The notes beneath the pieces were generated by a model. The model made no database searches. It was not told where the DNA came from and saw only the letters and a list, made by a program, of their open reading frames with translations. Below, in pieces: positions 3,527 through 21,469 of a DNA stretch of 31,762 nucleotides (its first letter is position 1; every line of letters starts with the position of its first letter). The stretch is from a virus. The translations under genes and the position numbers were made by a program. The DNA is taken from the IMG/VR virus record IMGVR_UViG_3300042516_002891, positions 1 through 31,762 of that record; one strand, 5' to 3'.

Positions 3527-3723
3527 GAATCGCCCTCCCAGTTGTCGGGTAGATCACAATCAAACCAATGGCCGTGAATCGCCTTGTATAGACAACGCTT
3601 CGTTGCTCTTATGTCCTGTTCGATTTGTTCGCCGTGTTGTGCATCGTTGCAATCGCTGCGATGAGACTTCAAATGTTGAAGCTCGCTTTTGAACGCGCAG
3701 GCGAGGTGATTATCATCCGTCAT
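3523..3723 (-). CDS. Small phage protein (66 aa)
   Basis: A 66-aa protein (MTDDNHLACAF...) with GGAGGTG as ribosome binding site and a TGATG overlap with the helicase stop. Residues 10-47 are mostly charged and helical with scattered Cys and His; the end contains WFDCDLPDNWEG. No family is recognised. Coupled translation on both sides supports it as a genuine gene of the helicase operon. Confidence 0.65.
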   Translation of the reverse strand: MTDDNHLACAFKSELQHLKSHRSDCNDAQHGEQIEQDIRATKRCLYKAIHGHWFDCDLPDNWEGDS

Positions 3724-6281: not shown

Positions 6282-6466
6282 TAGATTGCCTCCTTGAATC
6301 CCGTGCAGCCGCGAGTCGAGTGACCCGCCCAAAAGTTCTCCCGGCAAAAACAGTTTTCCCGCCAATTTTCCCGGCACGTTTCGCACTTGTTTTTACGGCA
6401 CCAAACGCACTTTGCCGGGAAAACGAGCTGCCGCGAAGGTGTTTTGGGCACGTTGAAATTTCCCAT
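6281..6466 (-). CDS. Possible small Cys-rich protein within repeat element E1
   Basis: An open frame of 61 codons starting at ATG 6466 and ending TAG, overlapping the helicase GTG (TAGTG). It contains six to seven cysteines (CVWCRKNKCETC ... NCFC). No good ribosome binding site precedes it. Its sequence is largely dictated by degenerate GCCGGGAAAA repeats, and the related element E2 keeps a similar open frame (SRRLVL ... GNCFCR..FW) but lacks the ATG. It could be a real peptide, a decayed gene fragment, or chance coding in a structured leader. Confidence 0.3.
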   Translation of the reverse strand: MGNFNVPKTPSRQLVFPAKCVWCRKNKCETCRENWRENCFCRENFWAGHSTRGCTGFKEAI

Positions 6467-6475: not shown

Positions 6476-8207
6476 CCGATTCCCCGGCGGGCTGCGTCGG
6501 GGGCAACGCGGGAGGCCCAGCGGTCGTCAGCGTCGCCGCCATATCCTCCAGCACCGCGAATTCCCTCCTAGACCACACCACGTACGATTTGCGGGCACCG
6601 CCGAGGTGGCGGTGTTCCTCATGCCGGAAATCCTCCGACGCCCCCATGCGGGCAAGCAGACGCCTCTTGAGGGCCAACCGCTCCCCGGTCTCGACGCGGT
6701 GCTGCCGTTCGATGTCTTCCCAAATCTTTCCCCACGCAAACCAGAGCGTGCCGTCGGCCCGCCACGCGGCCCGGCCCGTTGGGTCGGGAATGTCGTCGTC
6801 GGACGGCTGGGCAGCCTGAGCCAGCCGGTCGTAGAGCCATGAGGCCAGAAGCACGTACCGCAGGCTGCTTGCTCCCGGCCACTCCTCGCCCGCGTTGTCG
6901 AGGAGCTTCGCCTTGACCCCGCGTGCGTTTCGCTTCGTCGCCCGGTCGCCCGCCGACACGTTGTCCCGCACCTTGTAGCCGCCGTCCCAAATCTGCTTCC
7001 ACCGCTTCGGGTCGTCGTCGAGCATCACGCGGCCCGTCGCGGCCAGCACCTGCGCCGCGACCTTCGACGCCGAGCGGTATTGGTCTACCGTGAGCGTGAC
7101 GTTGCCCGTCTTGTCGGCGGTCATCTCCCGCCAGTGCGGAACGTGGAGGCGGTACTCAATCGGGTCAGAGTGGACGACCGTGAGGTTCCATTCGCCCGGC
7201 CCCCACTCTGGATCGCTGTCCGTGTCCGGTACCAGCGGTGCGTGCGACAAACCGATCTCCGTAAAGACCCGCTGCCATCCCGTCGGGGCCAGCCCCGGCT
7301 GCCTCGCTGCGGGTACGGGCAGCGGAGCCGAGTCGGCGGCGGCAATCGCCGCTTCGGTTGCCAGCCCCGCCGAACGCGTCTTGCGGACGTAGGCGATTGC
7401 CGAGCGGTACAGCCCCACGACTTCGGAGTCTTCGAGCGGCGGCTTGCACTGGATCATGTTCACAGCCCGAATCTTGAGCAGCAAGTCCTGCTGCTCCCGC
7501 TCGTTGTCGAGGTTCGGCCCTGAGCGGAACGCTTCCGCGATGGCGAAGCGGTGCAGTTCGTTGTTGCGACCGCCGCTGGCGACCGGTCGGTGCAGCATCT
7601 CGCGGGCGGGCGAGCGGGCAATCCGCTGCGTCTGCCCGTCGTCGTTCCAAAGCAGCGAGAGCAGCCGTTCGGGGAGCGGCTGAAGCTCCACGTCGTCGGG
7701 CGACAACCCCGGCACCCACTCGTAGCGGACGCCCGTGTGGTGCGTCGAGGGCGGCACGACCGACTGCGCGGCCTTGCCGCCGTTGCCGATCCGTACTTCG
7801 ATCCCCAGCACCTTCCGCACCGCGACCGCGGGCAAGTCCTCTTGCCACTTGAACAGCCGATGCGGGCCACGCCCGGCCCGGTAGGTTGGCGTCCAGATTT
7901 CACCAAGGCCCAAGTCCTCCCACGCCGCCTTCGCATCCTCGCCGTCCAGTTCCACGTCGATGACGCCCGACTTCGGGCCAAGGAGCAGGCCGACGTTCAC
8001 CGGCCTGCCGCTATCAAACCACGACAAGACTTCTTCCTCGTCGTTCGTCGCGGACAGGTGCCACGCGTCGCCGCCCGACGGATGCTTGCCCGGCGTGCCG
8101 CAGTCGCGGCCCTTCCAACAGGTGCAGACTTCCGGCTCGACCACGCCGTAGAGCGGCACCAGATGCCAGCCCAGCCGCGTGTAGGAAGCCGCCAATACGT
8201 TGCTCAT
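6471..8207 (-). CDS. Bifunctional DNA primase/polymerase (Prim-Pol, AEP family)
   Basis: 578 aa starting at ATG 8207, selected because GGAGG lies upstream and the Prim-Pol domain begins at residue 8. The N-terminal domain (about 8-200) shows GVIDVELDG (metal-binding acidic motif, D84 and neighbours), GIEVRIG, and VVPPSTHHTG with the S-x-H motif at 154-156, then YEWV. This is the archaeo-eukaryotic-type primase domain of many phage and plasmid primases, making primers for replication. The C-terminal 350 residues hold an uncharacterised region with a WxxIWDGGYKVRD stretch and no Walker motifs, so there is no fused helicase. It precedes the intein-containing helicase and follows the SNF2 module, consistent with a replisome operon. 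Confidence 0.85.
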   Translation of the reverse strand: MSNVLAASYTRLGWHLVPLYGVVEPEVCTCWKGRDCGTPGKHPSGGDAWHLSATNDEEEVLSWFDSGRPVNVGLLLGPKSGVIDVELDGEDAKAAWEDLGLGEIWTPTYRAGRGPHRLFKWQEDLPAVAVRKVLGIEVRIGNGGKAAQSVVPPSTHHTGVRYEWVPGLSPDDVELQPLPERLLSLLWNDDGQTQRIARSPAREMLHRPVASGGRNNELHRFAIAEAFRSGPNLDNEREQQDLLLKIRAVNMIQCKPPLEDSEVVGLYRSAIAYVRKTRSAGLATEAAIAAADSAPLPVPAARQPGLAPTGWQRVFTEIGLSHAPLVPDTDSDPEWGPGEWNLTVVHSDPIEYRLHVPHWREMTADKTGNVTLTVDQYRSASKVAAQVLAATGRVMLDDDPKRWKQIWDGGYKVRDNVSAGDRATKRNARGVKAKLLDNAGEEWPGASSLRYVLLASWLYDRLAQAAQPSDDDIPDPTGRAAWRADGTLWFAWGKIWEDIERQHRVETGERLALKRRLLARMGASEDFRHEEHRHLGGARKSYVVWSRREFAVLEDMAATLTTAGPPALPPTQPAGESV

Positions 8208-8230
8208 CGCCAGAACCTCCGTGAGTGGTG

Positions 8231-8271
8231 AAGAAAAGCCCCCGCGCCGCGTCTCCACACGACGCGGGGGC
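8231..8271 (-). terminator. Rho-independent terminator
   Basis: Arms gcccccgcg (8238-8246) and cgcgggggc (8263-8271) pair exactly, with a partly paired interior. On the minus strand the hairpin is followed at once by TTTTCTT. It sits between the gene ending at 8297 and the primase start, just before the primase ribosome binding site. Confidence 0.75.
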
Positions 8272-8296
8272 ATACGACCGACGAGCCTTTCCCTGA

Positions 8297-9061
8297 CTAC
8301 GCCGCATCCTGCGGTACGTCGATCTGCGTGGCGACGCGAGACAGCGGCTCGGTGTAGAGCCGCCGCACAATGTCGCCTTCTTCCTTCGTGATCGCGCCGA
8401 GAAACTTCGGCACGATCTGCGAGTACGGTTGCCCGCCCGCATTTTCCACCCGGTCGAGGGTCAGGCTGACCATCGCCCGGTAGTGCGGCACCGACAAACG
8501 CTTCACGAACGGCGTCACCGTCTTGAGGCTGCCCGGCCCCGCCGTGACCAGCAGCGGCCACGCCTCGTCGGCGCGGAGGATCGCCAGCAGGCGAGACTCC
8601 TTGCACCGCTTGCCGCGACCGGACTTCGACGTGCCGTACTGGTTGTAGGGCAATCTCGTCCAATCGTAGGTGCGGTCGCCCGTGCGGCACGATTCCAGCA
8701 CCTCGGCGTCGAGGTCGCCGATGTCCTCGTTGACCCGAACCGCGGTCATGAGGTCATAGGACACCAGCACCGGAGACGCCTTGCCCTGCGGCTCCTCGCT
8801 GCCCCACAACGTGCCACGCACGCCGTAGTAGACGAGTATGCCGTCGATGGACTTGGCACTCTGCTCGTTATTGCCAGAGTCCGTCCACGACCAAACCTTC
8901 CCGCCGCCCGCAGGCGTCGAGACGCGTGGGAGGTCGGACGCGAGCAACGACTCGCCCGGCCCAAGGTTCGCCATCAGAGCCTCACGCACGTCCGAGTCGG
9001 GACGCAACGCAAGGAACTTGCTCTCGGCTGCACCCGTGATGAGTTCGCCAGTAGGAGCCAT
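8297..9061 (-). CDS. Uncharacterised replication-region protein
   Basis: 254 aa beginning MAPTGELITG; GGTGG lies just before the ATG. The central and C-terminal parts read CKESRLLAILRADEAWPLLVT, then SLKTVTPFVKRLS, SLTLDRVENAGG and YSQIVPKFLGAI. From memory this resembles a widespread phage family that sits in replication clusters and is sometimes suggested to bind single-stranded DNA; that role is not established here. Its position between the coiled-coil/SNF2 pair and Prim-Pol agrees with a replication role. The repeat TGATTGTTTAGG and a 50-nt leader lie upstream. Confidence 0.6.
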   Translation of the reverse strand: MAPTGELITGAAESKFLALRPDSDVREALMANLGPGESLLASDLPRVSTPAGGGKVWSWTDSGNNEQSAKSIDGILVYYGVRGTLWGSEEPQGKASPVLVSYDLMTAVRVNEDIGDLDAEVLESCRTGDRTYDWTRLPYNQYGTSKSGRGKRCKESRLLAILRADEAWPLLVTAGPGSLKTVTPFVKRLSVPHYRAMVSLTLDRVENAGGQPYSQIVPKFLGAITKEEGDIVRRLYTEPLSRVATQIDVPQDAA

Positions 9062-10961: not shown

Positions 10962-11279
10962 TCAGTTGTCCTCCTGCTGCAAGAGGTCGGCTTCGATTGC
11001 CTCCCACTTCGCTTCGATCTGGTTGTCGGCCCACGTGTGTACCTCGTCCAAGACGCCGAGCGTCACCGGGCGTGGCAGGCCGATAGCCGACGTGACTTCC
11101 TTGACCGTGATCTTGCGAACGTCCGCAGTCGGTGGCGTCGAGGGCCAGCCGTCGCCGTTGGCGTCCCGCCAGCAACCGGGGTCGCCGGGGTCGAGGTCGT
11201 AGGTAATCTCGACTTCGACTTCGCAGCAGTTCAGCCGCAGGTCGTCGTTGTCGTCGGTGAGCGTGAGCGTGTGCGTCAT
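10962..11279 (-). CDS. Acidic phage protein of unknown function (105 aa)
   Basis: 105 aa, strongly acidic, with GAGGTG before the ATG and an ATGA overlap with the gene upstream. The first half is predicted beta (LRLNCCEVEVEITYDLD) and includes CCE and a GDPGCW turn; the C-terminal third is helical (DNQIEAKWEAIEADLLQQ). It ends one base before the SNF2 start. No family is recognised. Genomic context links it to the helicase operon. Confidence 0.65.
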   Translation of the reverse strand: MTHTLTLTDDNDDLRLNCCEVEVEITYDLDPGDPGCWRDANGDGWPSTPPTADVRKITVKEVTSAIGLPRPVTLGVLDEVHTWADNQIEAKWEAIEADLLQQEDN

Positions 11280-11563
11280 GCCGTCACCTCGTTTCGTAGT
11301 TGCGTCCGCAGCCCGTCGATCTGCTCATGGATGCCGCGAGCGATCTCGGTCAGTGCCGTTGCCATCGCCCGGTTGGCGTCTGTTCGCGTCGCGTACCAGC
11401 CCTCCGACACCTTTGACAACGTGCCGCTGCCGCTTCGCACCAGCGGGTCGCCGTCCGCGATGATGTCCGTCACCGTGCCTTCGTAGACATACGTCACGAT
11501 CCCACCGAGGTCGCTTACCATCGTGCCCACGTAGGGGCGGTACACCGTCTCGCCTGCGTCCAT
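11276..11563 (-). CDS. Phage protein of unknown function (95 aa)
   Basis: 95 aa; AGGAG lies upstream of ATG 11563. The N-terminal half is beta-rich with repeated Gly and Thr (VGTMVSDLGGIVTYVYEGTVTDI); the rest forms a long helix with ANRAMATALTEIARGIHEQIDGL, possibly a coiled coil for oligomerisation. No domain is recognised. Coupled by ATGA to the acidic protein and then to the SNF2 helicase. Confidence 0.65.
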   Translation of the reverse strand: MDAGETVYRPYVGTMVSDLGGIVTYVYEGTVTDIIADGDPLVRSGSGTLSKVSEGWYATRTDANRAMATALTEIARGIHEQIDGLRTQLRNEVTA

Positions 11564-11595
11564 GACTTGTTGCTCCTGTGATTCCGTTCGGTTTG

Positions 11596-11641
11596 AAAAA
11601 GAGAGCCGAGGCGGGCGGGAGAACGGAGGTACCCGCCCGCC
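11596..11641 (-). terminator. Rho-independent terminator after the DUF932 gene
   Basis: Exact 10-bp arms (11610-11619 and 11632-11641) with a 12-nt loop. On the minus strand a T-rich stretch (CTCTCTTTTTC) follows within ten bases. It separates the DUF932 gene from the 95-aa gene. Confidence 0.7.
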
Positions 11642-11679
11642 CCGGCGACTGCCGCCTTGCGGCGGCGTCAGGCGGGGGA

Positions 11680-12678
11680 CTAGACCGCCAACTCAACTGC
11701 ACTCGCCCAGGCACGCTCCTTGAAGGAGTGGGCCGAACCGAACAGGCAGGAACGGAACTTCCGCTCCATTCGTTTTTCACCGCGGCCCGTGACGCGGAGT
11801 TCGTGGTCGGCCCACTCGCTCGCGGCGTTGTAGGCCGTCCACACGTTCGACTTGTAGCCACCCTCGTTCGTGGGCAGGGCGAACCGATCCCACAACTGCG
11901 TCAGCACCTTGCCGCGGCTTCGCTCGCTGCGGTTTTCGACCAGCCCGCCGAAGTAGTCGCTGACCTGCTGCGTGTTCATCTGCTTCGCCAGCATCGCCCG
12001 AGCCGCTTCCGCAAACTCGTCGTGGCTGTTGTGGATGATGCCGAGCAGTTCCTTCGCCTTCTGCACCCGCTTGCCGAGGCTCCCAGCGGTGTGAAACAAC
12101 TTGAGGCCGAGCGGCAATCCCGCGTCGGACTTGTTGCTGTCCACCGCACTGATCGCCAGCCGCAGCGTGTTCGCACACACCACTCGCACGCTCGTCGGGA
12201 ACAGCCGCACGGCTCCGGTGCCAGCGTGGTTGTTCGTGATCAGCACGTACTTGTCGAGAACGTCCCGGTCGCAGACTTCGATATGGCCGGGGAGCTTCGC
12301 GAGCATCCACACGTCCTTGCCGCCGCGGAGCGAGCCGCACGTCTCCCAAATCGCCAACTTCTCGCCAACGACCTCATCCATCCACGCGAAGGCGTCGCGG
12401 TTCTGGAGCGGCTGGTACCGCATCCCGACCGCCCCCAGTGCGGCCCCGGTGTCCGTCCGCATCGTCGCCCGGTGCGTGTCAATGGGCTGGTGCGTGCCGT
12501 CGGGCATGATCGCCGCGAGGTCGGTCAACTGCACGTCCCAGTCGAGCCCCGCGATCCGCAGGGCATCGACCGAAGTCTGAGCCTGCGCGACCACCGTGCC
12601 GAACCCGTGCCACGCGGGCTTGTAGGCGAACATCGCCGAGCCTTGAGCCTGCGTCGTGAAGTCAATTTCGTGAGCCAT
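11680..12678 (-). CDS. DUF932 phage/plasmid-like protein (TIGR03299 type)
   Basis: 332 aa, close to the normal length of this family. Typical features are the opening MAHEIDF ... PAWHGFGT, DWDV, YQPLQNRDAFAWMDEV, the GKDVWMLAKLPG strand, LITNNHAGTGAVRLFPTSVRVVCANTL, and the C-terminal NVWTAYNAASEWADHEL. The family is common in phages and plasmids of many bacteria; its biochemical role is not known, though it lies with DNA-metabolism genes. GGAGG precedes the start. A terminator follows it, and a hairpin plus one GATTGTTYRG repeat lies just upstream, so it may be a separately controlled unit. Confidence 0.85.
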   Translation of the reverse strand: MAHEIDFTTQAQGSAMFAYKPAWHGFGTVVAQAQTSVDALRIAGLDWDVQLTDLAAIMPDGTHQPIDTHRATMRTDTGAALGAVGMRYQPLQNRDAFAWMDEVVGEKLAIWETCGSLRGGKDVWMLAKLPGHIEVCDRDVLDKYVLITNNHAGTGAVRLFPTSVRVVCANTLRLAISAVDSNKSDAGLPLGLKLFHTAGSLGKRVQKAKELLGIIHNSHDEFAEAARAMLAKQMNTQQVSDYFGGLVENRSERSRGKVLTQLWDRFALPTNEGGYKSNVWTAYNAASEWADHELRVTGRGEKRMERKFRSCLFGSAHSFKERAWASAVELAV

Positions 12679-13216: not shown

Positions 13217-13523
13217 ACTCACCGACGCTGCGACGCAGCCGAGCGGCCCACGCAGCAAAGAACGCCTGCTCAATCTGGTCGTGCGTGCGGGCGGTGAGTT
13301 TCACGCCGCCCATCTGAATGTCGTTGAGGGCTTCGCGTTGGATCGCGAGGCCGTCCTTGCGGGCCAACTCAAGCGTCACCCAGCCGGTCGCCTGCCCCTC
13401 GACCTCGTCCCCCACCAGCGTCGCGAGCCGATCCTCGCCAGCCGCCAGCAGCACGTCCACCAGTTTGTTCGCCAGCGTCTTGCTGAGCGTCACCACCACC
13501 GGGTTCTTGATCTTGCGGGTCAT
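13215..13523 (-). CDS. Phage early-region protein of unknown function (102 aa)
   Basis: 102 aa; GGAGA before ATG 13523. It starts MTRKIKNPVVVTLSKTLANKLVDVLLAAGED, a basic strand followed by a helix, then a beta part (GQATGWVTLELARKDG) and a helical C-terminus (HDQIEQAFFAAWAARLRR). The pattern could be a small DNA-binding or adaptor protein, but no family is recognised. It is the first gene after promoter P1, so it should be well expressed. Confidence 0.6.
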   Translation of the reverse strand: MTRKIKNPVVVTLSKTLANKLVDVLLAAGEDRLATLVGDEVEGQATGWVTLELARKDGLAIQREALNDIQMGGVKLTARTHDQIEQAFFAAWAARLRRSVGE

Positions 13524-13575
13524 CGTTCGTTCTCCGTTTCGTCGTCTGCCGCAGTGTCCGCTGCGTCATGTTGGC

Positions 13576-13603
13576 ATTATAGACTATCGGTAGCAACTGT
13601 CAA
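13576..13603 (-). promoter_or_regulatory. Sigma70-type promoter P1
   Basis: Minus strand: TTGACA (13598-13603), 16-bp spacer containing TACCGATAGT, TATAAT (13576-13581). An AT-rich stretch (AAAAAAATATTTTC) lies upstream of -35, like an UP element. The same block recurs at P2 and P3. It should drive the 102-aa gene and those downstream. Confidence 0.88.
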
Positions 13604-13647
13604 TAGGCTCCAGAAAATATTTTTTTCTGTGTTTTTCCCGGCGTTTT

Positions 13648-13887
13648 TCACCGGATCACCCCCAGCCCCGCGTCCGCGAGGTCGAGGACGGCCCGCCCGA
13701 ATGCCCGCAGCCGCCCAGGCGGCGAGGCCGGGGCGGGCTGCGGTACCGGCAGGGTTGCCATCGGCTGCATTGCCTGCCGGTGAGCGGTGTCGATGGCGGC
13801 GAGTTGGAGCCGCGTCTCAATGATGAGCGACGACGCAACTGCCATCACGGCGATGAAGCACACGGTGCGGAGTAGGTCGCGGAGCAT
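13648..13887 (-). CDS. Small membrane-anchored protein (79 aa)
   Basis: 79 aa with one hydrophobic span near the N-terminus (LLRTVCFIAVMAVASSLII, residues 5-23), a polar helix, then a Pro-rich linker (PVPQPAPASPPG) and a basic amphipathic C-terminus. Likely a single-pass inner-membrane protein with its C-terminus outside or inside depending on the flanking Arg residues. No family is recognised; a spanin- or lysis-related role is not supported by any motif. It starts three bases after the previous stop, with GGGTG nearby. Confidence 0.55.
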   Translation of the reverse strand: MLRDLLRTVCFIAVMAVASSLIIETRLQLAAIDTAHRQAMQPMATLPVPQPAPASPPGRLRAFGRAVLDLADAGLGVIR

Positions 13888-13890
13888 AGA

Positions 13891-14100
13891 TCACCCGTTC
13901 TTTCCGTACGTATTCAAGAACTCCACAAGCCCGACCTTCGTCCGCTCCGCTTCGATCACCCTGACTTCGTGGCTGTCGGACAACTTGAGTTGCCGCAGCC
14001 GCTTCATTGCTTTGTTGAACGTTGTGAACCACTCGCAGGTGGTGCCGCTCGGCGAGTCTTCTTCGTGGTACGAGATCATGTAGAGCGTTGGCTTGCTCAT
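13891..14100 (-). CDS. Phage small protein (69 aa)
   Basis: 69 aa, alternating beta and helix: LYMISYHEED, CEWFTTFNKAMKRLRQL, HEVRVIEAE, LVEFLNTYG. The middle helix is basic. The ATG overlaps the previous stop (ATGA). No family is recognised. It belongs to a run of five coupled small genes from 14850 to 13648. Confidence 0.65.
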   Translation of the reverse strand: MSKPTLYMISYHEEDSPSGTTCEWFTTFNKAMKRLRQLKLSDSHEVRVIEAERTKVGLVEFLNTYGKNG

Positions 14101-14276
14101 GCCTCTGCCTCCTGCCAGTGCTTCACCAGTTCAGCCGCCCGCTCCTGCGAGTCGTAGACGCCGACGAGCCACTGGTACCCGGTCGCGGGATTGCTGCTCC
14201 AGATTTCAAACCACCGCTCGCCGGGGCGGCGGGGGTCAAGCGTCTCGACGACGCGGTAGGCAACTTTGTGGGTCAT
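14097..14276 (-). CDS. Phage small protein (59 aa)
   Basis: 59 aa starting MTHKVAYRVVETL; GGGGGTG lies before the ATG, which overlaps the upstream TGA (ATGA). It has two beta strands (KVAYRVVE, WFEIWSS), a Tyr/Trp-rich turn (TGYQWLVGVYD) and a C-terminal helix (ERAAELVKHWQEA). The plan resembles its neighbour at 13891-14100, so the two may be distant relatives. No family is recognised. Confidence 0.65.
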   Translation of the reverse strand: MTHKVAYRVVETLDPRRPGERWFEIWSSNPATGYQWLVGVYDSQERAAELVKHWQEAEA

Positions 14277-14659
14277 GACTGCACCCCCGCCCGCAAAGCC
14301 GCGAGCCGCCGCGAGTCGTGATTCTTCGGCGGCACCCACACGCCACGTCTCCGCTCGCACCACTTGAGATAGGTTTCAATGCACCGCGCCGCGACACGGG
14401 CCATGCCGTCCGTCCATTCCATCGCGTTCTCCTCGGCCCACCGCCACGCCTGCGCTTCCTTGTCGAGCCGCCTACCGGCCTGCGGGCCGACAACGTGGCC
14501 TATCTCATGGAGTGCGATAGCGTAAGTGCTTGCACCACGCACCCGCTCCAGCCGAACACGCTTCGTTTTTCTCCATGACCGGGCCGCTGTGCGATCCCGC
14601 CAATCAGCCGCGATGCAGTGCTCCACAAGCAACGTTTCAACGTGTTCGGCGTAGGTCAT
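14273..14659 (-). CDS. Small HExxH zinc metalloprotein (zincin-like)
   Basis: 128 aa starting MTYAEHVETLL. Residues 47-56 read AIALHEIGHV, the zinc-binding HExxH helix; E69 in DKEAQAWRWAEENA is a likely third ligand, as in gluzincin-type and ImmA/IrrE-like small phage peptidases. The rest (Arg-rich N-terminal half, Trp-rich C-terminal half) is not recognised. It could cleave a host protein such as a repressor, or be a catalytically weak relative. It is embedded in a run of small early genes with ATGA overlaps on both sides. Confidence 0.7.
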   Translation of the reverse strand: MTYAEHVETLLVEHCIAADWRDRTAARSWRKTKRVRLERVRGASTYAIALHEIGHVVGPQAGRRLDKEAQAWRWAEENAMEWTDGMARVAARCIETYLKWCERRRGVWVPPKNHDSRRLAALRAGVQS

Positions 14660-14850
14660 GACTGCACCGCCTTCCGCAAGCAATCGGCAAGGTACTCGGC
14701 CACGCCGTCATCGCCCCCGTGCCTCGCAACAAATTTCGCGAGCGTCTCATCGTCGCCAAGATCAGTCACGGCAGCGCGGCACCGGATAATGGTGCGGTCG
14801 CCACGCTTCACCGCAATGATTAGCCCGCAGTGCTCAAACATCGTGTTCAT
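14656..14850 (-). CDS. Phage small protein (64 aa)
   Basis: 64 aa starting MNTMFEHCGL; GGAGG precedes the ATG. A beta hairpin (LIIAVKRGDRTIIRCRAAV) is followed by an acidic helical part (DETLAKFVARHGGDDGVAEYLADCL). No family is recognised. It is the first gene of the coupled run, placed directly after a GATTGTTYRG repeat and a 12-bp hairpin. Confidence 0.65.
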   Translation of the reverse strand: MNTMFEHCGLIIAVKRGDRTIIRCRAAVTDLGDDETLAKFVARHGGDDGVAEYLADCLRKAVQS

Positions 14851-14884
14851 CGTCCCGTCCTCCGTTGAAGTCCTATCGTCCCAG

Positions 14885-14913
14885 CCCGTGCTGCGGAACG
14901 CCCGCAGCACGGG
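14885..14913 (-). terminator. Intercistronic hairpin (12 bp, perfect)
   Basis: Arms 14885-14896 and 14902-14913 with a 5-nt loop. It lies between the repeat at the end of the 91-aa gene and the ribosome binding site of the next gene. No T-run follows, so attenuation or mRNA stabilisation is as likely as termination. Confidence 0.55.
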
Positions 14914-14916
14914 TAT

Positions 14917-14926
14917 CCGAACAATC
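14917..14926 (-). repeat. GATTGTTYRG repeat at the 14925 gene end
   Basis: Minus-strand GATTGTTCGG followed by ATA, overlapping the TGA stop of the 91-aa gene and immediately followed by a perfect hairpin. Confidence 0.7.
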
Positions 14927-15200
14927 AGCCGTTGATCGCTGCGCGGCCAGCGTCGGTCAAGGCGTACCGCGTCACGCAGTACGCGGTGCGGCGAACGTGG
15001 TAGCCCTTGCCGCAGAAGTTGGGAACGTAGTCGCTGGCGTACTGGAGGCCGGTCGATGAAACAACCTCGATCAGACCGCGATCAAGCAAGGCGATGCCAG
15101 TGCATCGCATCACACCCTCGGGCCATCCCGTCTCGTTGTAGGTGGCAAACGCGGCAAGTGCTGCCCGTTGCCTCGCGTTGATCTTTGCGGTCGCCATCAT
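14925..15200 (-). CDS. Winged-helix-like small protein
   Basis: 91 aa starting MMATAKINARQRAAL (either Met possible); GGAGA upstream. The order ALAAFATYNETGW ... GIALLDRGLIEV ... RYALTDAGRAAI is the signature of a winged helix-turn-helix: the 'LxxRGLI' recognition region followed by a wing and 'YALTDAGR'. It is probably a small DNA-binding protein. A CGKGYHVRRTAYC insert lies in the wing. Its gene is flanked by hairpins and by repeats on both sides. Confidence 0.6.
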   Translation of the reverse strand: MMATAKINARQRAALAAFATYNETGWPEGVMRCTGIALLDRGLIEVVSSTGLQYASDYVPNFCGKGYHVRRTAYCVTRYALTDAGRAAING

Positions 15201-15231
15201 GGTTCGTGTCTCCGTAGTCTTGAGTCCGTAG

Positions 15232-15258
15232 AACCCCGCCGCACTGTGCGGCGGGGTT
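15232..15258 (-). terminator. Intercistronic hairpin (12 bp, perfect)
   Basis: Arms 15232-15243 and 15247-15258 with a 3-nt loop, GC-rich. On the minus strand it is followed by CTACGGAC, not a T-run. It lies between the repeat at the end of the 88-aa gene and the next start. Confidence 0.55.
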
Positions 15259-15265
15259 GGGTTAG

Positions 15266-15275
15266 CCGAACAATC
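15266..15275 (-). repeat. GATTGTTYRG repeat at the 15274 gene end
   Basis: Minus-strand GATTGTTCGG followed by CTA; it overlaps the TGA stop of the 88-aa gene and is followed by a perfect hairpin. Confidence 0.7.
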
Positions 15276-15540
15276 AGCCCTCGACCGTGTGCGGCACAAC
15301 CTCGCGGCCATAAGTCGCGCGGGCGTTGCCGCCGTACCGGCCACCGTTGAAGCCGCCGGTCAGCCGTTGGCCGTTGAGCGCATCCGGTTCGCTGGTCAGG
15401 ATGAACGTGCGAACCCTCTGGCCGTCGCCTGCCGTCGAATCGTGGCACCCGCTGGCACGGCACCGATAGCCGTAGGTGAAGATGATGTCGCCGTCCTGCA
15501 CGTCGGTGGCTGCGATGCGTTCGATTTTGCGATTGGTCAT
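15274..15540 (-). CDS. Phage early-region protein of unknown function (88 aa)
   Basis: 88 aa; GGAGA before ATG 15540. The N-terminal part, IERIAATDVQDGDIIFTYGYRCRASGCHD, looks like a small beta domain with two cysteines; later come TFILTSEPDAL and a Gly-rich GGFNGGRYGGNA stretch, which could be disordered or RNA-binding. No family is recognised. It is the first gene of promoter P2. Confidence 0.6.
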   Translation of the reverse strand: MTNRKIERIAATDVQDGDIIFTYGYRCRASGCHDSTAGDGQRVRTFILTSEPDALNGQRLTGGFNGGRYGGNARATYGREVVPHTVEG

Positions 15541-15593
15541 CGTCGTGTTCTCCGTTGTTGGCGTCTCGCGGTGTCCGCCGCGTTGACCCCTGT

Positions 15594-15621
15594 ATTATAC
15601 ACTATCGGTATGCACTGTCAA
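15594..15621 (-). promoter_or_regulatory. Sigma70-type promoter P2
   Basis: Minus strand: TTGACA (15616-15621), 16-bp spacer ending ACCGATAGTG, TATAAT (15594-15599). The upstream AT-rich block is identical to that of P1 and P3. It should drive 15274-15540 and the genes beyond. Confidence 0.88.
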
Positions 15622-15649
15622 TAGGCTCCAGAAAATATTTTTTTAGGCT

Positions 15650-15666
15650 GTTTTCGCCGGGAAAAC
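15650..15666 (-). terminator. Small CCGGC hairpin upstream of P2
   Basis: GTTTTC and GAAAAC arms around a CCGGC loop, directly after the stop at 15671 and just upstream of the P2 AT-rich region. The same hairpin lies upstream of P3 at 17565-17581. It is probably the end of the upstream transcript, though it lacks a T-run on the minus strand. Confidence 0.45.
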
Positions 15667-15670
15667 GCGG

Positions 15671-15895
15671 TCACAGCAACTCGTCGTCGGCCACGTCGAT
15701 GGGCTGGCCCGCCGCGTTCACCGCGAACGTGAGGGCCACGTCGAACATTTCGCCGAACACCGGCTTCCGCGTCACGCACTTGTCGCATTGGAACACCGGC
15801 AGCGTCGAGCCTTCGATCTCGACGCTGCCGGTCGCCTTGAGTTCCACCCCGCATCCCGGGCAGTGCCACGTTGAGACTTGCGATTGATTGTTCAC
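15671..15895 (-). CDS. Small zinc-ribbon protein (74 aa)
   Basis: 74 aa with CPGC at 12-15 and CDKC at 37-40, a clear two-knuckle zinc ribbon holding a beta sheet (VELKATGSVEIEGSTLPVFQ). The C-terminal half is beta and acidic (DVALTFAVNAAGQPIDVADDELL). Such ribbons bind nucleic acid or proteins. AAAGGA lies 13 bases before the ATG. It is the last gene of the amidoligase/glutaminase transcript from P3 and could be a partner of those enzymes. Confidence 0.65.
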   Translation of the reverse strand: MNNQSQVSTWHCPGCGVELKATGSVEIEGSTLPVFQCDKCVTRKPVFGEMFDVALTFAVNAAGQPIDVADDELL

Positions 15896-15907
15896 GGTCG
15901 GTTCCTT

Positions 15908-16540
15908 TCAGGCGTATTCGACGATCTGACCTTCGGTGAACTGCGTCACCGAACCGGGGAGTCCAAACCCAAGCGAAGCGAGGTAGTACGCGCCGCGGGT
16001 CTCGCCGACGTGCAGCGGTTGCCCGTTCGCTCTCGCCGCGATCATCCGGTCGGGCCAGAGCATCATCGTGGCGAACGGAGAGACGCCCATTGCTTCCTCG
16101 CAGGCCCGCCTCGCTCTTGCCATCGGCTTGCCGCCAAACTTCTGGAGCATCAGCCCAAGCACCTCGCTGTCGCAGTCGGTCCGCATGGTTAGCTCATGCC
16201 TCTCGGCGATGTTCTGGTAGTGGCCGATGACCCCGTTGTGAACCACCCACGCGTCGCCGCCGTCGTGCGGATGGTTGTTGAGGTTGTTCTTCGGGTCGCC
16301 GTGCGTCGCCCAGCGGCAATGGCCGATCAACATTCTCGCCCCCTTCGCCATTGCCAGCAAGCCAAGAGCCGAAACAATCCTGCCCTGCTGCTTGTAGTTG
16401 TGCATCCGGCCGCGACCGTCAACCCATGCGAGGCCCCACGCGTGAGGCCCGCGGGTCTCCGTGATCGTGGCGATCCGACGCAGGATCGAAAGGTCGACCG
16501 GCTCGTTCTCCTTCGCAACGTATCCAAAAATTCCGCACAT
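15908..16540 (-). CDS. Class II glutamine amidotransferase (Ntn glutaminase domain)
   Basis: 210 aa starting MCGIFGYV with AAGGAG before the ATG. Cys2 becomes the N-terminal nucleophile after Met removal. Other family marks: RGPHAWGLAW (30-39), GHCRWATHG (73-81), NNHP, VVHNGVI (99-105) and TDCDSEVLGLML (121-132). The domain hydrolyses glutamine to supply ammonia, as in GlmS, PurF or AsnB, but no synthetase domain is attached. The gene just upstream encodes an amidoligase, so ammonia could be passed to it, or the pair could build amide bonds on a peptide or cell-wall substrate. Expressed from promoter P3. Confidence 0.88.
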   Translation of the reverse strand: MCGIFGYVAKENEPVDLSILRRIATITETRGPHAWGLAWVDGRGRMHNYKQQGRIVSALGLLAMAKGARMLIGHCRWATHGDPKNNLNNHPHDGGDAWVVHNGVIGHYQNIAERHELTMRTDCDSEVLGLMLQKFGGKPMARARRACEEAMGVSPFATMMLWPDRMIAARANGQPLHVGETRGAYYLASLGFGLPGSVTQFTEGQIVEYA

Positions 16541-16573
16541 GACTTGCTCCTTTGTGTGTTGGTGATCGTCTGT

Positions 16574-16599
16574 CTCTCGCGGCCCAGTTGCCGCGAGAG
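16574..16599 (-). terminator. Intercistronic hairpin (10 bp, perfect)
   Basis: Arms 16574-16583 and 16590-16599 with a 6-nt loop, between the amidoligase stop and the glutaminase start. No T-run follows on the minus strand. Together with the preceding repeat it may set the relative expression of the two enzymes. Confidence 0.55.
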
Positions 16600-16608
16600 T
16601 TTCCCTAC

Positions 16609-16618
16609 CCAAACAATT
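16609..16618 (-). repeat. GATTGTTYRG repeat (AATTGTTTGG variant)
   Basis: Minus-strand AATTGTTTGG followed by GTA; its first A is part of the TAA stop of the amidoligase. A perfect hairpin follows. Confidence 0.65.
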
Positions 16619-17456
16619 ACGGCTGGCTGTCGTACTGCTTCGCCATCTTGCGGAGAACCTTCTTCGACTCCGCGAGCGTCGGGACTCCTTCGCCTTCGAT
16701 GCTGCCGACAATGCCTTCGGTGTTCCACCACTTGAGGTCGTAGAACAGGCGGGTCACTTCGGCCTGTCCCTCGCCGCGGCTCGCACGCCAGCAGGCCGAG
16801 CGGCTGTTGAAGCGGCAGGCCTTCTTCGCCTTGAGTGCCTTCTCCGCGAGAGCGACGCACAGCCGCACGAACCCGCAGATTTTCGTCTTGTTCAGCGAGC
16901 CGGAGAACGGACGGAACTCGACGGTCGGGTGTTCGGTCGTCAAGTTGACGACGTGGTAGCGGTCGGCGGCGGGGCCGCTATACGAGACCCGAGCAGCGGC
17001 AGCGGAGCCGAACCGCTTGACGCTCTTGCACCAGCAGGTGCCGCGGCGGCTGCCGACGCCACGCTCGCGGTTTTTCGTGCCGGTCACGGCGTAGATAGCC
17101 TTTTCGTGATTGGCGACAAGAGCGAGCAGGCGGTCAACCGCCTTCGTGTCGTTCTTGTCGAAGCCGACGTGGACGTGAATGCCGCAGGAGTCGTTGACCT
17201 TGCCGCCGCGACGCTTGATCTCCGCGACCGCTTCGCAGAGTTGCCGCAGGCCTTCGGCACCTTTGAGGATGGGGGAAACAAACTCGCACTGAATCTGCGT
17301 CTCGGCGTCGTAGATGATTGAGGGGTCGCGGTCGGCGAGCCAGCCGCGGGGGAGCCACTGCACTTGGATGCCGTCGCCGTGCCCGCCCACTCGCACCGAA
17401 CCAATGGGCATCGTCGTTTCGATCTCGACACCGAAGGTCATTTCGTTTGCTTGCAT
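16617..17456 (-). CDS. Amidoligase (Amidoligase_2 family)
   Basis: 279 aa starting MQANEMTFGVEIET; GGAGA lies before the ATG. Motifs of the glutamine-synthetase-fold amidoligases are clear: FGVEIET (8-14) and a second Glu strand QCEFVSP (56-62) for metal/ATP, CGIHVHVG (91-98), RYHVVNL (166-172) and VEFRPFSGSLN (179-189). These enzymes are predicted to form amide bonds between carboxyl and amino groups, for example on peptides or wall components. The C-terminal 80 residues are basic and helical. It is the first gene after promoter P3 and is followed by a class II glutaminase, a pairing noted for this superfamily. Confidence 0.85.
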   Translation of the reverse strand: MQANEMTFGVEIETTMPIGSVRVGGHGDGIQVQWLPRGWLADRDPSIIYDAETQIQCEFVSPILKGAEGLRQLCEAVAEIKRRGGKVNDSCGIHVHVGFDKNDTKAVDRLLALVANHEKAIYAVTGTKNRERGVGSRRGTCWCKSVKRFGSAAAARVSYSGPAADRYHVVNLTTEHPTVEFRPFSGSLNKTKICGFVRLCVALAEKALKAKKACRFNSRSACWRASRGEGQAEVTRLFYDLKWWNTEGIVGSIEGEGVPTLAESKKVLRKMAKQYDSQP

Positions 17457-17508
17457 CGTCGTTTCTCCGTTTGCTGCGTTGCTCGCGGTGTCCGCCGCGA
17501 ACTCCCCC

Positions 17509-17536
17509 ATTATACACTATCGGTATCGGCTGTCAA
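17509..17536 (-). promoter_or_regulatory. Sigma70-type promoter P3
   Basis: Minus strand: TTGACA (17531-17536), 16-bp spacer with a doubled CCGATACCGATAG, TATAAT (17509-17514). Upstream AT-rich block and CCGGC hairpin (17565-17581) match P2 almost exactly. Drives the amidoligase, glutaminase and zinc-ribbon genes. Confidence 0.88.
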
Positions 17537-17564
17537 TAGGCTCCAGAAAATATTTTTTTAGGCT

Positions 17565-17581
17565 GTTTTCGCCGGGAAAAC
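17565..17581 (-). terminator. Small CCGGC hairpin upstream of P3
   Basis: Same GTTTTC-CCGGC-GAAAAC hairpin as at 15650-15666, lying eight bases after the stop at 17589. It probably marks the end of the upstream transcript. Confidence 0.45.
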
Positions 17582-17588
17582 GAGGGTT

Positions 17589-17834
17589 CTACGGGGCGGG
17601 TGGCGGGGCGATCCCCTGCATCAGCACCGGGGCGTCCGTCTCAATCCAGACTTTTGCCCCGCAGGCCAGCGGCTTGCAGGGGGAGTAGACGACGCGGCTT
17701 GGCCCCAGCAGGTCGACCGACCGGCAGTACGTGTTGCCGCGGCTCGTCTTCACGGTCAGCGGCGGCTCGTCGGTGCCGTCTCGCTTGTTGCGCCGTATGA
17801 CGTGCTGGTTGACGTGGATTCTAGTGCGTGCCAT
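17589..17834 (-). CDS. Phage small basic protein (81 aa)
   Basis: 81 aa starting MARTRIHVNQHVIRRNKRDG, basic at the N-terminus, then beta-rich (PPLTVKTSRGNTYCRSVDLLGPSRVVYSP, AKVWIETDAPVLM). The alternation fits a small beta-barrel, but no family is recognised. No strong ribosome binding site is seen before the ATG. It follows element E2 and precedes the P3 block, so it may be a single-gene unit. Confidence 0.6.
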   Translation of the reverse strand: MARTRIHVNQHVIRRNKRDGTDEPPLTVKTSRGNTYCRSVDLLGPSRVVYSPCKPLACGAKVWIETDAPVLMQGIAPPPAP

Positions 17835-17922
17835 GCGGGCATCGTCGCACCCGCGTCAACTCCCTTTATCTATATAGGCCTTCTTCGCAGTGAAGGCGAC
17901 GCAAAAAACGCACGTACCCCGG

Positions 17923-18079
17923 CCCTACCCAAAACAAAGATCGGCAAAAACAGTTTCCGCGGGACTTTTCTCGGGCACCTAACCCATTGCAGCGAAAGCG
18001 GTTCGCTCCAACTCCCGACAAAACGAGCCGCCGCGAAGCTGTTTCGGGCAGTTGTTTTTTCTCTATATAACTAGAGAAA
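17923..18079 (-). repeat. Intergenic element E2, diverged copy of E1, with palindrome
   Basis: About 150 bp after the stop of the HTH gene, related to 6323-6475: TCTAGTTATAT, CTTCGCGGC.GCTCGTTTT and CTGTTTTTGCCG occur in the same order. Its right end is an exact 8-bp palindrome (18058-18065 / 18072-18079, 6-nt loop) preceded by a T-run on the plus strand, so it could also stop plus-strand transcription. The remaining gap to 17835 holds only a TATAGAT-like sequence that might be a -10. Confidence 0.6.
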
Positions 18080-18085
18080 GCGTCG

Positions 18086-18328
18086 CTAGGCCTTCCGACG
18101 CTTGGCCCGCTTCCCTTTCGCGGCGATCCATCGCGGGTTGCCGCTCGTCGTGTGGAGCAGCGGCTTGATTCGCAGCAGGTCGGTCGTCGCCAGAGCAGCG
18201 AGCCGCCCGTCCTCAACGATCACACCGATGCCGTGCTGGCGAGCGATGCGGCTCACCGTAATCGGCGCGCAGCCGAGCCGCTTCGCCGCTTCCTGACCGC
18301 TGATGTAAACCACTGCGTCGTCTCCCAT
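18086..18328 (-). CDS. Helix-turn-helix regulator or excisionase-like protein
   Basis: 80 aa starting MGDDAVVYISGQEAAKRLG, chosen because AAGGAG lies nine bases upstream (an earlier ATG at 18346 falls inside the -10 of P4). Residues 9-50 (ISGQEAAKRLGCAPITVSRIARQHGIGV..EDGRLAAL) form a MerR/excisionase-like HTH with a wing. The tail is very basic (AAKGKRAKRRKA), typical of DNA-binding proteins. Close to the integrase and a second HTH gene, it is a candidate for a repressor or Xis. Confidence 0.7.
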   Translation of the reverse strand: MGDDAVVYISGQEAAKRLGCAPITVSRIARQHGIGVIVEDGRLAALATTDLLRIKPLLHTTSGNPRWIAAKGKRAKRRKA

Positions 18329-18345
18329 CTGGCCGTTCTCCTTCA

Positions 18346-18374
18346 TTCATAGGACGGGTGCAGTCCGCTGTCAA
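18346..18374 (-). promoter_or_regulatory. Promoter P4 (diverged)
   Basis: Minus strand: TTGACA (18369-18374) inside CTATTGACAGC, shared with P1-P3, a 17-bp spacer and TATGAA (18346-18351). It lacks the TACCGATAGT spacer and the AT-rich upstream block. It should start transcription a few bases before the HTH gene. Confidence 0.6.
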
Positions 18375-18378
18375 TAGG

Positions 18379-18600
18379 TCAGCCGAGCTTCGACCGCTTG
18401 CGTCCCGAGAGAGTGGGATCGCGGTGCAGGTAGTCGCGGAGGTTCTTCTCGACGCTCTTTTTGCTGACGGCCCACGCTCGACCGCTCAATCGGAACCCTT
18501 CAAGCGTTCCAGCCTGCACCATCTTTATGACCCAAACGTCCGTGCAGCCAAGCATTTCCGCTGCGACCGGAACGGAAATCCATTCGGGGGGGCGTTGCAT
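18379..18600 (-). CDS. Excisionase-like HTH protein
   Basis: 73 aa; GAGGAG before ATG 18600. EWISVPVAAEMLGCTDVWVIKMVQAGTLEGFRLSGRAWAV is a MerR-type helix-turn-helix with the 'G.L.g.r..gR.W.V' wing of excisionase and helix-turn-helix type 17 proteins. A basic tail (DPTLSGRKRSKLG) follows. It is divergent from the integrase, 145 bp away, which is the usual place for an Xis or a lysogeny regulator. Confidence 0.72.
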   Translation of the reverse strand: MQRPPEWISVPVAAEMLGCTDVWVIKMVQAGTLEGFRLSGRAWAVSKKSVEKNLRDYLHRDPTLSGRKRSKLG

Positions 18601-20393: not shown

Positions 20394-21469
20394 GGTTTTC
20401 CCTTTTTCAAGTCTTCGTCGCAGAACAATGGGTAGGCTTTCGTGACCTCGTTGCGTCCGTGGTCGATCACGACGAGTCCCTGGCATGGCCGCTCGGGACT
20501 CGCCTTGATGTGGACAGCGTATGCACTGTGTCCAATCACGCTGCCGTTGCTGACGTACCGCCCGCCACGCAGCCAGCCCCACGTGTGATAGTGGCCGAAG
20601 ATGGTGAGGTTCGCCCGGCGGTGAGCGTCCCACGCTGCGATCGCTTTGCTGGCGGGCAGGGCAAGACCGTAGACGCCGCCGGAGTAGCGAATACTGTGGC
20701 CGTGGGTCGTGCGGATCACGAACCCGTCGAGGTCGAGGTAGTTGAGATGCCCGGTGGCGATCTGCCACTCGACGTTTTCGTTTCGCTCCTCACGCCGCAG
20801 CGTGTGGTACATGAGTTGTTCCCACGAATGGTCAAGCTCCGTCGCGATTCGGTTCTTTTCCGTAGACCGCCCGTGGTTGCCAGCGTTCGTTGCCACGACC
20901 ACGCTCTCGACTTTCGCCGCGATGGAGTCGATGAGACCCCGCAGCCGCTCGCCAATCCACCGCGTCGCGTTGGGCGGCGTGAGTTGGGCGACCTCGACGC
21001 AATCGGGATGGATATGCCCGGTAATGAAGTCGCCGCCAAGCCAGATGACGACGCGGCGCACGTCGGCCAACTGCCGCTCATGGTCGAGCATCAGAAAGAA
21101 ACGTCGCTCCAGTTCAGCCAGCCGGGAGTCGCACACGTCGAGCGAAAAGTCGTTCTCGCCATTGACCGTCTCCGGCGTCACTCGCTCCTCGCAATGCACG
21201 TCCGAGAGCATGAGCAGCATCGTCGCGGCGTGCTTCTTCCCTTTGCCGCTCTTGGCGACGGGGCGGCGTTTCGGCTTGATGCCTTGAAGCGTGACGAGTG
21301 AATCAGCCCGCTCGCGTTCGGCGTCGATCTGCTTCAACGCCGCGTCATACCGTTTTCGGTATGACGCCACCTCGGCCCGCAGCCGGGCCAGTTCGGCGTC
21401 GGCCGCGAGCTGCGAGGTGCTGGCGAGCGAATCGGCCACCTCGGCCGCTAGCGTTTTCCGTTTAGCCAC
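20390..21469 (-). CDS. Calcineurin-like metallophosphoesterase
   Basis: 359 aa starting at GTG 21469, selected because AAGGAG lies seven bases upstream. An N-terminal coiled coil (about 20-58) is followed by the two-metal phosphoesterase fold: LSDVHCEE (D90, H92), WLGGDFITG (D147), NAGNHGR (N-H pair), THGHSIRY and FGHYHTWG (final His pair). Likely substrates are DNA or RNA ends or nucleotides; phages often carry such enzymes near packaging or DNA-metabolism genes. It is coupled to the DUF1599-like gene. Confidence 0.85.
   Translation of the reverse strand: MAKRKTLAAEVADSLASTSQLAADAELARLRAEVASYRKRYDAALKQIDAERERADSLVTLQGIKPKRRPVAKSGKGKKHAATMLLMLSDVHCEERVTPETVNGENDFSLDVCDSRLAELERRFFLMLDHERQLADVRRVVIWLGGDFITGHIHPDCVEVAQLTPPNATRWIGERLRGLIDSIAAKVESVVVATNAGNHGRSTEKNRIATELDHSWEQLMYHTLRREERNENVEWQIATGHLNYLDLDGFVIRTTHGHSIRYSGGVYGLALPASKAIAAWDAHRRANLTIFGHYHTWGWLRGGRYVSNGSVIGHSAYAVHIKASPERPCQGLVVIDHGRNEVTKAYPLFCDEDLKKGKP

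Follow-up and report, generated by a model that had tools for sequence, protein, structure and literature searches.

The virus record analysed here, a linear stretch of 31,762 bases referred to as the window, carries an amidoligase gene followed on the same strand by the gene of a stand-alone class II glutaminase. This pair is a real, conserved system across many planctomycete phages. There is about an even chance that in this temperate Planctomycetota phage the two products work together as a split amide-forming enzyme that depends on glutamine; the enzyme would act on a glutamate-like or gamma-glutamyl substrate and serve a contest between phage and host or between phages.

The window also encodes an integrase, an excisionase-like HTH protein, a tape measure protein, a primase-polymerase, helicases and a beta clamp. 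Since such integration, tail and replication genes surround the pair, the record most likely derives from a temperate tailed phage. The host group of the phage is Planctomycetota. All strong bacterial-genome matches of the amidoligase in profile searches come from this phylum, with two weak matches in other phyla, and many of the Planctomycetota matches look like prophages, terminase and portal genes being encoded close by. Profile searches also found at least 433 amidoligase relatives in IMG/VR, and more distant ones in phages of Arthrobacter, Bacillus, Faecalibacterium, Porphyromonas and gut Firmicutes. A DNA similarity search with positions 13500-18400 gave no match to described phages, and an Rfam search of the window gave none either. 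The UvrD-like helicase ORF at 3723-6386 (minus strand) features about 303 extra residues (286-588, approximately window positions 4623-5531), which its homologue in relative L004 lacks and which show a weak Intein_splicing match (2.3e-4); this insert is probably an intein.

Organisation and expression of the gene trio

The initial annotation of the window described an amidoligase, a class II glutaminase and a small zinc-ribbon protein transcribed from a phage promoter, P3. The three ORFs are indeed there, all on the minus strand and following a perfect P3 sequence. The features of this region are, in the direction of transcription:

17509-17536, minus strand: promoter P3, TTGACA-16 bp-TATAAT (12/12 sigma-70 match), preceded by an A/T-rich block and with CGATAG in the spacer
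17484-17499, minus strand: stem-loop CGCGG-CGGACA-CCGCG of the 5' leader, near where the transcript should start (covariation)
16617-17456, minus strand: amidoligase (Amidoligase_2, 279 aa) with a predicted glutamine synthetase/glutamate-cysteine ligase fold (profile matches, model, invariant residues)
16574-16599, minus strand: GC-rich hairpin between the amidoligase and glutaminase genes, with a 10-bp stem, a 6-nt loop and no U tract
15908-16540, minus strand: stand-alone class II glutamine amidotransferase domain, 210 aa, with Cys2 as nucleophile (family, fold, residues)
15671-15895, minus strand: small zinc-ribbon protein, 74 aa, with a GTG start and four cysteines (two CxxC pairs; conserved neighbour)
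15594-15621, minus strand: promoter P2, the same element as P3, directly downstream of the trio at the end of the P3 cassette

Purifying selection relative to the nearest relatives (dN 0.21-0.39, dS 0.77-1.16) and the conserved neighbourhoods exclude that these ORFs arose by chance. There is no U-tract terminator between the genes of the trio, only the 10-bp GC hairpin between amidoligase and glutaminase, and a single transcript may span all three. Most close relatives also have a strong hairpin in this gap (L014-L020, L029, L032 and L104), its position being kept while its sequence changes. Hairpins with a stem of at least 9 bp number seven in the window versus a mean of 1.35 in first-order shuffles. 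Further perfect hairpins of 11-15 bp are located at 158-191, 549-581, 14885-14913, 15232-15258, 15795-15832 and 21342-21367.

Three perfect 12/12 promoter sites occur between 13400 and 18400, while shuffled sequences average 0.7 sites even at a looser 9/12 threshold. They correspond to three near-identical copies in the window at 13603, 15621 and 17536 (elements 13575-13637, 15593-15655 and 17508-17570). The same promoter-leader element is present in the related loci L002, L003, L004, L014, L015 and L019. It consists, in order, of an A/T-rich block, CTATTGAC, CGATA in the spacer, a TATAAT-like box and a leader stem-loop with the loop CGGACA. In an alignment of ten leaders 98% of the cells of the stem are paired and three of its five pairs have changed on both sides, versus 22-58% pairing when the stem is slid along the sequence; this covariation is moderate evidence for the structure because the ten leaders are short and were picked by hand.

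A scan with a fixed-spacing version of the promoter pattern gave no match. The variable-gap version was found in 24 stretches of IMG/VR (L121-L144), where small ORFs of many unrelated kinds follow it, and the idea that the promoter is special to the pair was rejected on this ground. The pair is therefore best described as cargo of a phage-wide accessory-cassette promoter, an element whose multiple copies give access to the way planctomycete phages control their genes. Expression from such a promoter fits the suggestion of the initial annotation that the enzymes could form a modification system directed against host or rival phages, and it is in such a contest that the pair would probably serve. 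The suggestion has a precedent, as PMC10580990 and PMC11318856 attribute the idea of a wall-directed or superinfection-exclusion function to Iyer et al. 2009. The P2 cassette downstream includes a small ORF (14276-14650, minus strand) whose product has a zincin-like HEIGHVVG motif and no family match.

The last gene of the trio codes for a zinc-ribbon protein as annotated, with the motif CPxC...QCxxC, and thus two CxxC pairs, invariant in five related sequences. Its only Pfam match is below threshold (Zn_ribbon_TFIIB, E 0.0025), and it is consequently given no named family. The zinc ribbon gene lies nearby in 24 of the 62 amidoligase loci compared. It is convergent to the pair in 21 of them, and direct reading of L002-L005 showed the convergent arrangement there too. 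The co-directional order is confined to the window, L014 and L015, which form one supported clade of the amidoligase tree (n=62). The trio was accordingly rejected as a fixed operon: the zinc ribbon gene is kept near the pair but is not a general operon partner, and the operon of the window is a lineage-specific re-arrangement of an older neighbourhood. The neighbourhood of the three genes nevertheless recurs outside the window, and so withstood the check on conservation elsewhere that the initial annotation had set. The amidoligase-glutaminase pair is kept both in phages and prophages of Planctomycetota and in unrelated phages.

The two catalytic domains

Assignment of the first gene product to the Amidoligase_2 family was upheld by profile searches, with matches to PF12224 (E 2.9e-22, 80.2 bits for a curated Pfam cut-off of 22) and phrog_2443 (E 1.5e-29). 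A structural model built from 62 sequences (pLDDT 93.6) displays the glutamine synthetase/glutamate-cysteine ligase fold, in which acidic and E-x-R residues are conserved. Positions invariant in the 62 sequences include F8, E11, E13, E58, H94, E180 and R182, which, F8 apart, presumably correspond to the metal and ATP ligands of glutamine synthetase. Over nearly its full length the model matches YbdK (Z 13.4-13.5), glutamine synthetases (Z about 12.5) and Dop (Z about 12), and PafA is among its Foldseek matches. The fold (Z 11.6-13.5) and the E-x-E and E-x-R type motifs are common to the phage protein, YbdK and glutamate-cysteine ligases, glutamine synthetase and PafA/Dop. The phage amidoligase is, however, shorter than these enzymes, 8-18% identical to them and without a relative of solved structure detectable by sequence, a PDB sequence search having found no chain. 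It is likeliest to be an ATP-dependent amide ligase, as predicted from its family.

The matches to Dop and PafA, and the position of the pair in an accessory cassette, are consistent with a role in protein modification. The amidoligase would then serve host takeover by modifying side chains of host proteins with ammonia or an amino acid, much as the related Pup ligase and deamidase (PafA and Dop) do with theirs. This appears improbable. No tag protein is recognisable and the carboxyl terminus of the zinc ribbon is not Pup-like; moreover, glutamine synthetases and YbdK reach the same Z as Dop, so that the fold alone gives no pointer to a protein substrate.

The second gene product is a stand-alone class II glutaminase with the cysteine right after the initiator methionine, in agreement with the earlier call of an intact Cys2. 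It matches GATase_6 (E 2.6e-12) and, over residues 2-189, the NCBIfam GlmS model (E 2e-25). Its structural model (pLDDT 96.2) has the class II Ntn fold, with the cysteine at the amino terminus once the methionine is removed. The model superimposes on the glutaminase domain of GlmS (1xff) with a TM of 0.84-0.85 at 31-32% identity, and on EgtC (4zfk) with a TM of about 0.75 at 17% identity. Residues C2, R76, T79, H90, H101, N102, G103 and D124 are invariant in 40 glutaminases and align with GlmS, and on this alignment the GlmS-type catalytic and glutamine-binding residues are retained. The class II Ntn-hydrolase fold and amino terminal cysteine are thus common to the phage protein, the GlmS domain and EgtC. 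In GlmS the domain is fused to an isomerase domain, and the substrate of EgtC is a gamma-glutamyl amide; the phage glutaminase is encoded on its own next to a ligase.

Ergothioneine synthesis pairs the same two folds, and there the second enzyme, EgtC, strips off a glutamyl group. By analogy the amidoligase could link the gamma-carboxyl of glutamate to an amine, and the Ntn hydrolase (in relatives perhaps the cyclotransferase) would later remove the glutamyl group to yield a small compound. This EgtA/EgtC-like combination of gamma-glutamyl ligase and hydrolase is the main rival of the amidation reading and the most serious alternative, although it is itself unlikely. It agrees with the presence of the glutamate-cysteine ligase-like YbdK among the nearest full-length folds of the amidoligase, and EgtC, also a stand-alone enzyme of the class II GAT type, has a similar size and a related structure. 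A gamma-glutamyl cyclotransferase also adjoins the pair in several relatives (L014, L015, L024, L091 and phages ZRK32 and ctwe8250), about 1.3 kb upstream in L014 and 2.3 kb upstream in L015. Against it, the glutaminase is clearly nearer GlmS (31%, TM 0.84) than EgtC (17%, TM 0.75) and keeps the glutamine-binding residues of the former. The EgtC-type hydrolase model (NCBIfam TIGR03442) scores 20 bits on it for a cut-off of 218.65, with GlmS-type models far higher. No further gene belonging to such a pathway is recognised in the window, and the cyclotransferase (PF06094) is absent from its record, which is possibly a fragment.

In the preferred amidation reading the class II glutaminase would release ammonia from glutamine by means of Cys2. 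The amidoligase would use ATP to turn a carboxylate into an acyl phosphate, which would then react with the glutaminase-derived ammonia to a carboxamide. A glutamate-like or gamma-glutamyl substrate is most likely, because of the cyclotransferase beside the pair in the nearest relatives; it could be a carboxylate of a peptide or wall peptide, or a small gamma-glutamyl compound. A change of wall peptides would amount to phage-encoded wall amidation, the making of a gamma-glutamyl compound to a phage-encoded metabolite pathway. While the families, folds, catalytic residues, adjacency, host phylum and promoter class are computational results, the transfer of ammonia from one enzyme to the other, the type of substrate and the purpose of the pair are inferred.

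Co-inheritance of the pair and its neighbours

A glutaminase gene lies downstream of the amidoligase on the same strand and within 1.5 kb in 41 of the 62 loci. The same adjacency is seen in Arthrobacter phages and in podophage ctwe8250. Among the 21 loci without an adjacent glutaminase, 19 form one clade of the amidoligase tree and the other two (L060 and L077) are close to contig ends. No glutaminase was detected anywhere in the 13 records searched from this group, which include eleven contigs of the 19-member clade searched whole. It follows that the amidoligase family can act without a dedicated source of ammonia. One planctomycete prophage-like locus, L107, codes for two amidoligases (8001-8855 and 11025-11870), one belonging to the clade without glutaminase and the other followed by a glutaminase.

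Distances between amidoligases and between glutaminases correlate over 39 loci (Mantel r 0.79, with none of 2000 permutations as high). Such co-inheritance does not show that the two enzymes are physically coupled. They might be cassette neighbours acting independently, in keeping with the 19 of 62 amidoligases that have no glutaminase beside them and with a pair of phages, L017 and L019, in which the amidoligase alone was exchanged. Independent action nevertheless seems very unlikely, as the two genes stay adjacent, in the same order and orientation, in phages and hosts that differ greatly, and the distances correlate.

L017 and L019 are 97-98% identical on either side of the amidoligase and their glutaminases are nearly identical, while the amidoligases are only 78% identical, a change confined to the gene (from 6001). 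A general diversifying exchange of the amidoligase was rejected, as this is the only case in 31 close phage pairs; a single case suggests selection on ligase identity and does not establish it. There is only a slim chance that the pair carries out a minimal, planctophage-specific amidation in which ligase alleles are swapped between near-identical phages while the glutaminase stays, the ligase giving its specificity to a wall or surface change by which rival phages would be excluded.

A protein of about 150 aa is encoded between or after the two genes in about 18 loci (L027:6803-7312, L029:7678-8241 and L104:1707-2126 among them). Some members have a HEFGHA-type motif that others have lost, HExxH being present in 5 of 12 aligned sequences, and searches of Pfam and PHROG gave no match. 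It was rejected as a part of the system, being also absent from the clade of the window.

Comparison with known phage systems

Phages of widely differing bacteria carry amidoligase/glutaminase pairs. Such modules were first interpreted by Iyer et al. 2009 (cited through PMC10580990). They were reported in LUZ24-like Pseudomonas phages such as UFV-P2 (PMC3890496), in phage tf (PMC3517423), in OM43 phages (PMC10580990) and in the planctomycete (Poriferisphaera) phage ZRK32 (OP650935; PMC10945688). The papers cited here report no experimental substrate for such a pair. The published phages often add an ATP-grasp enzyme, a phiEco32-type ligase and a gamma-glutamyl cyclotransferase.

As in the LUZ24/phiEco32-type and OM43 modules, Amidoligase_2 adjoins a class II glutamine amidotransferase on the same strand in an accessory or early region of the window. 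The planctophage form differs from the LUZ24/phiEco32-type modules by what surrounds and extends the two domains. COOH-NH2_lig (PF14395), present in ZRK32 and ctwe8250, was not found in the window and 23 planctophage records, which may be fragments. Likewise, a search with the ATP-grasp of ctwe8250 identified no homologue in the window and 21 planctophage records, other ATP-grasp families being covered only in part. The cyclotransferase is present in only some planctophage relatives and not in the window record, and the planctophage glutaminase is a bare domain of 210 aa instead of a protein of roughly 300-530 aa.

ZRK32 also infects a planctomycete and has an amidoligase followed by a GAT-II gene. 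Its amidoligase is nonetheless distant (E 4e-7 with the planctophage profile), its glutaminase ORF codes for 532 aa and, unlike the window, it carries a COOH-NH2 ligase, an ATP-grasp-like gene and a cyclotransferase. The authors of PMC10945688 read the same gene pair as auxiliary nitrogen metabolism, moving nitrogen into host amino acids, and describe better growth with added phage, a result that in the accessible text is not resolved gene by gene. For the window this function is highly unlikely, given that the ZRK32 enzymes are distant, larger and accompanied by additional ligase genes; a short accessory cassette would also be an unlikely site for general nitrogen assimilation.

In Arthrobacter phages Wheelbite, Salgado and Ottawa the amidoligase is directly followed by a glutamine amidotransferase, as in the window, but identity is about 30%, the glutaminase has 295-307 aa and the host is actinobacterial. 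The pair itself is thus not new; what is new is its reduced planctophage form. Since the latter is the most reduced form found here, with two bare catalytic domains, good structural models and many natural variants, it makes a convenient object in which to test what such pairs do.
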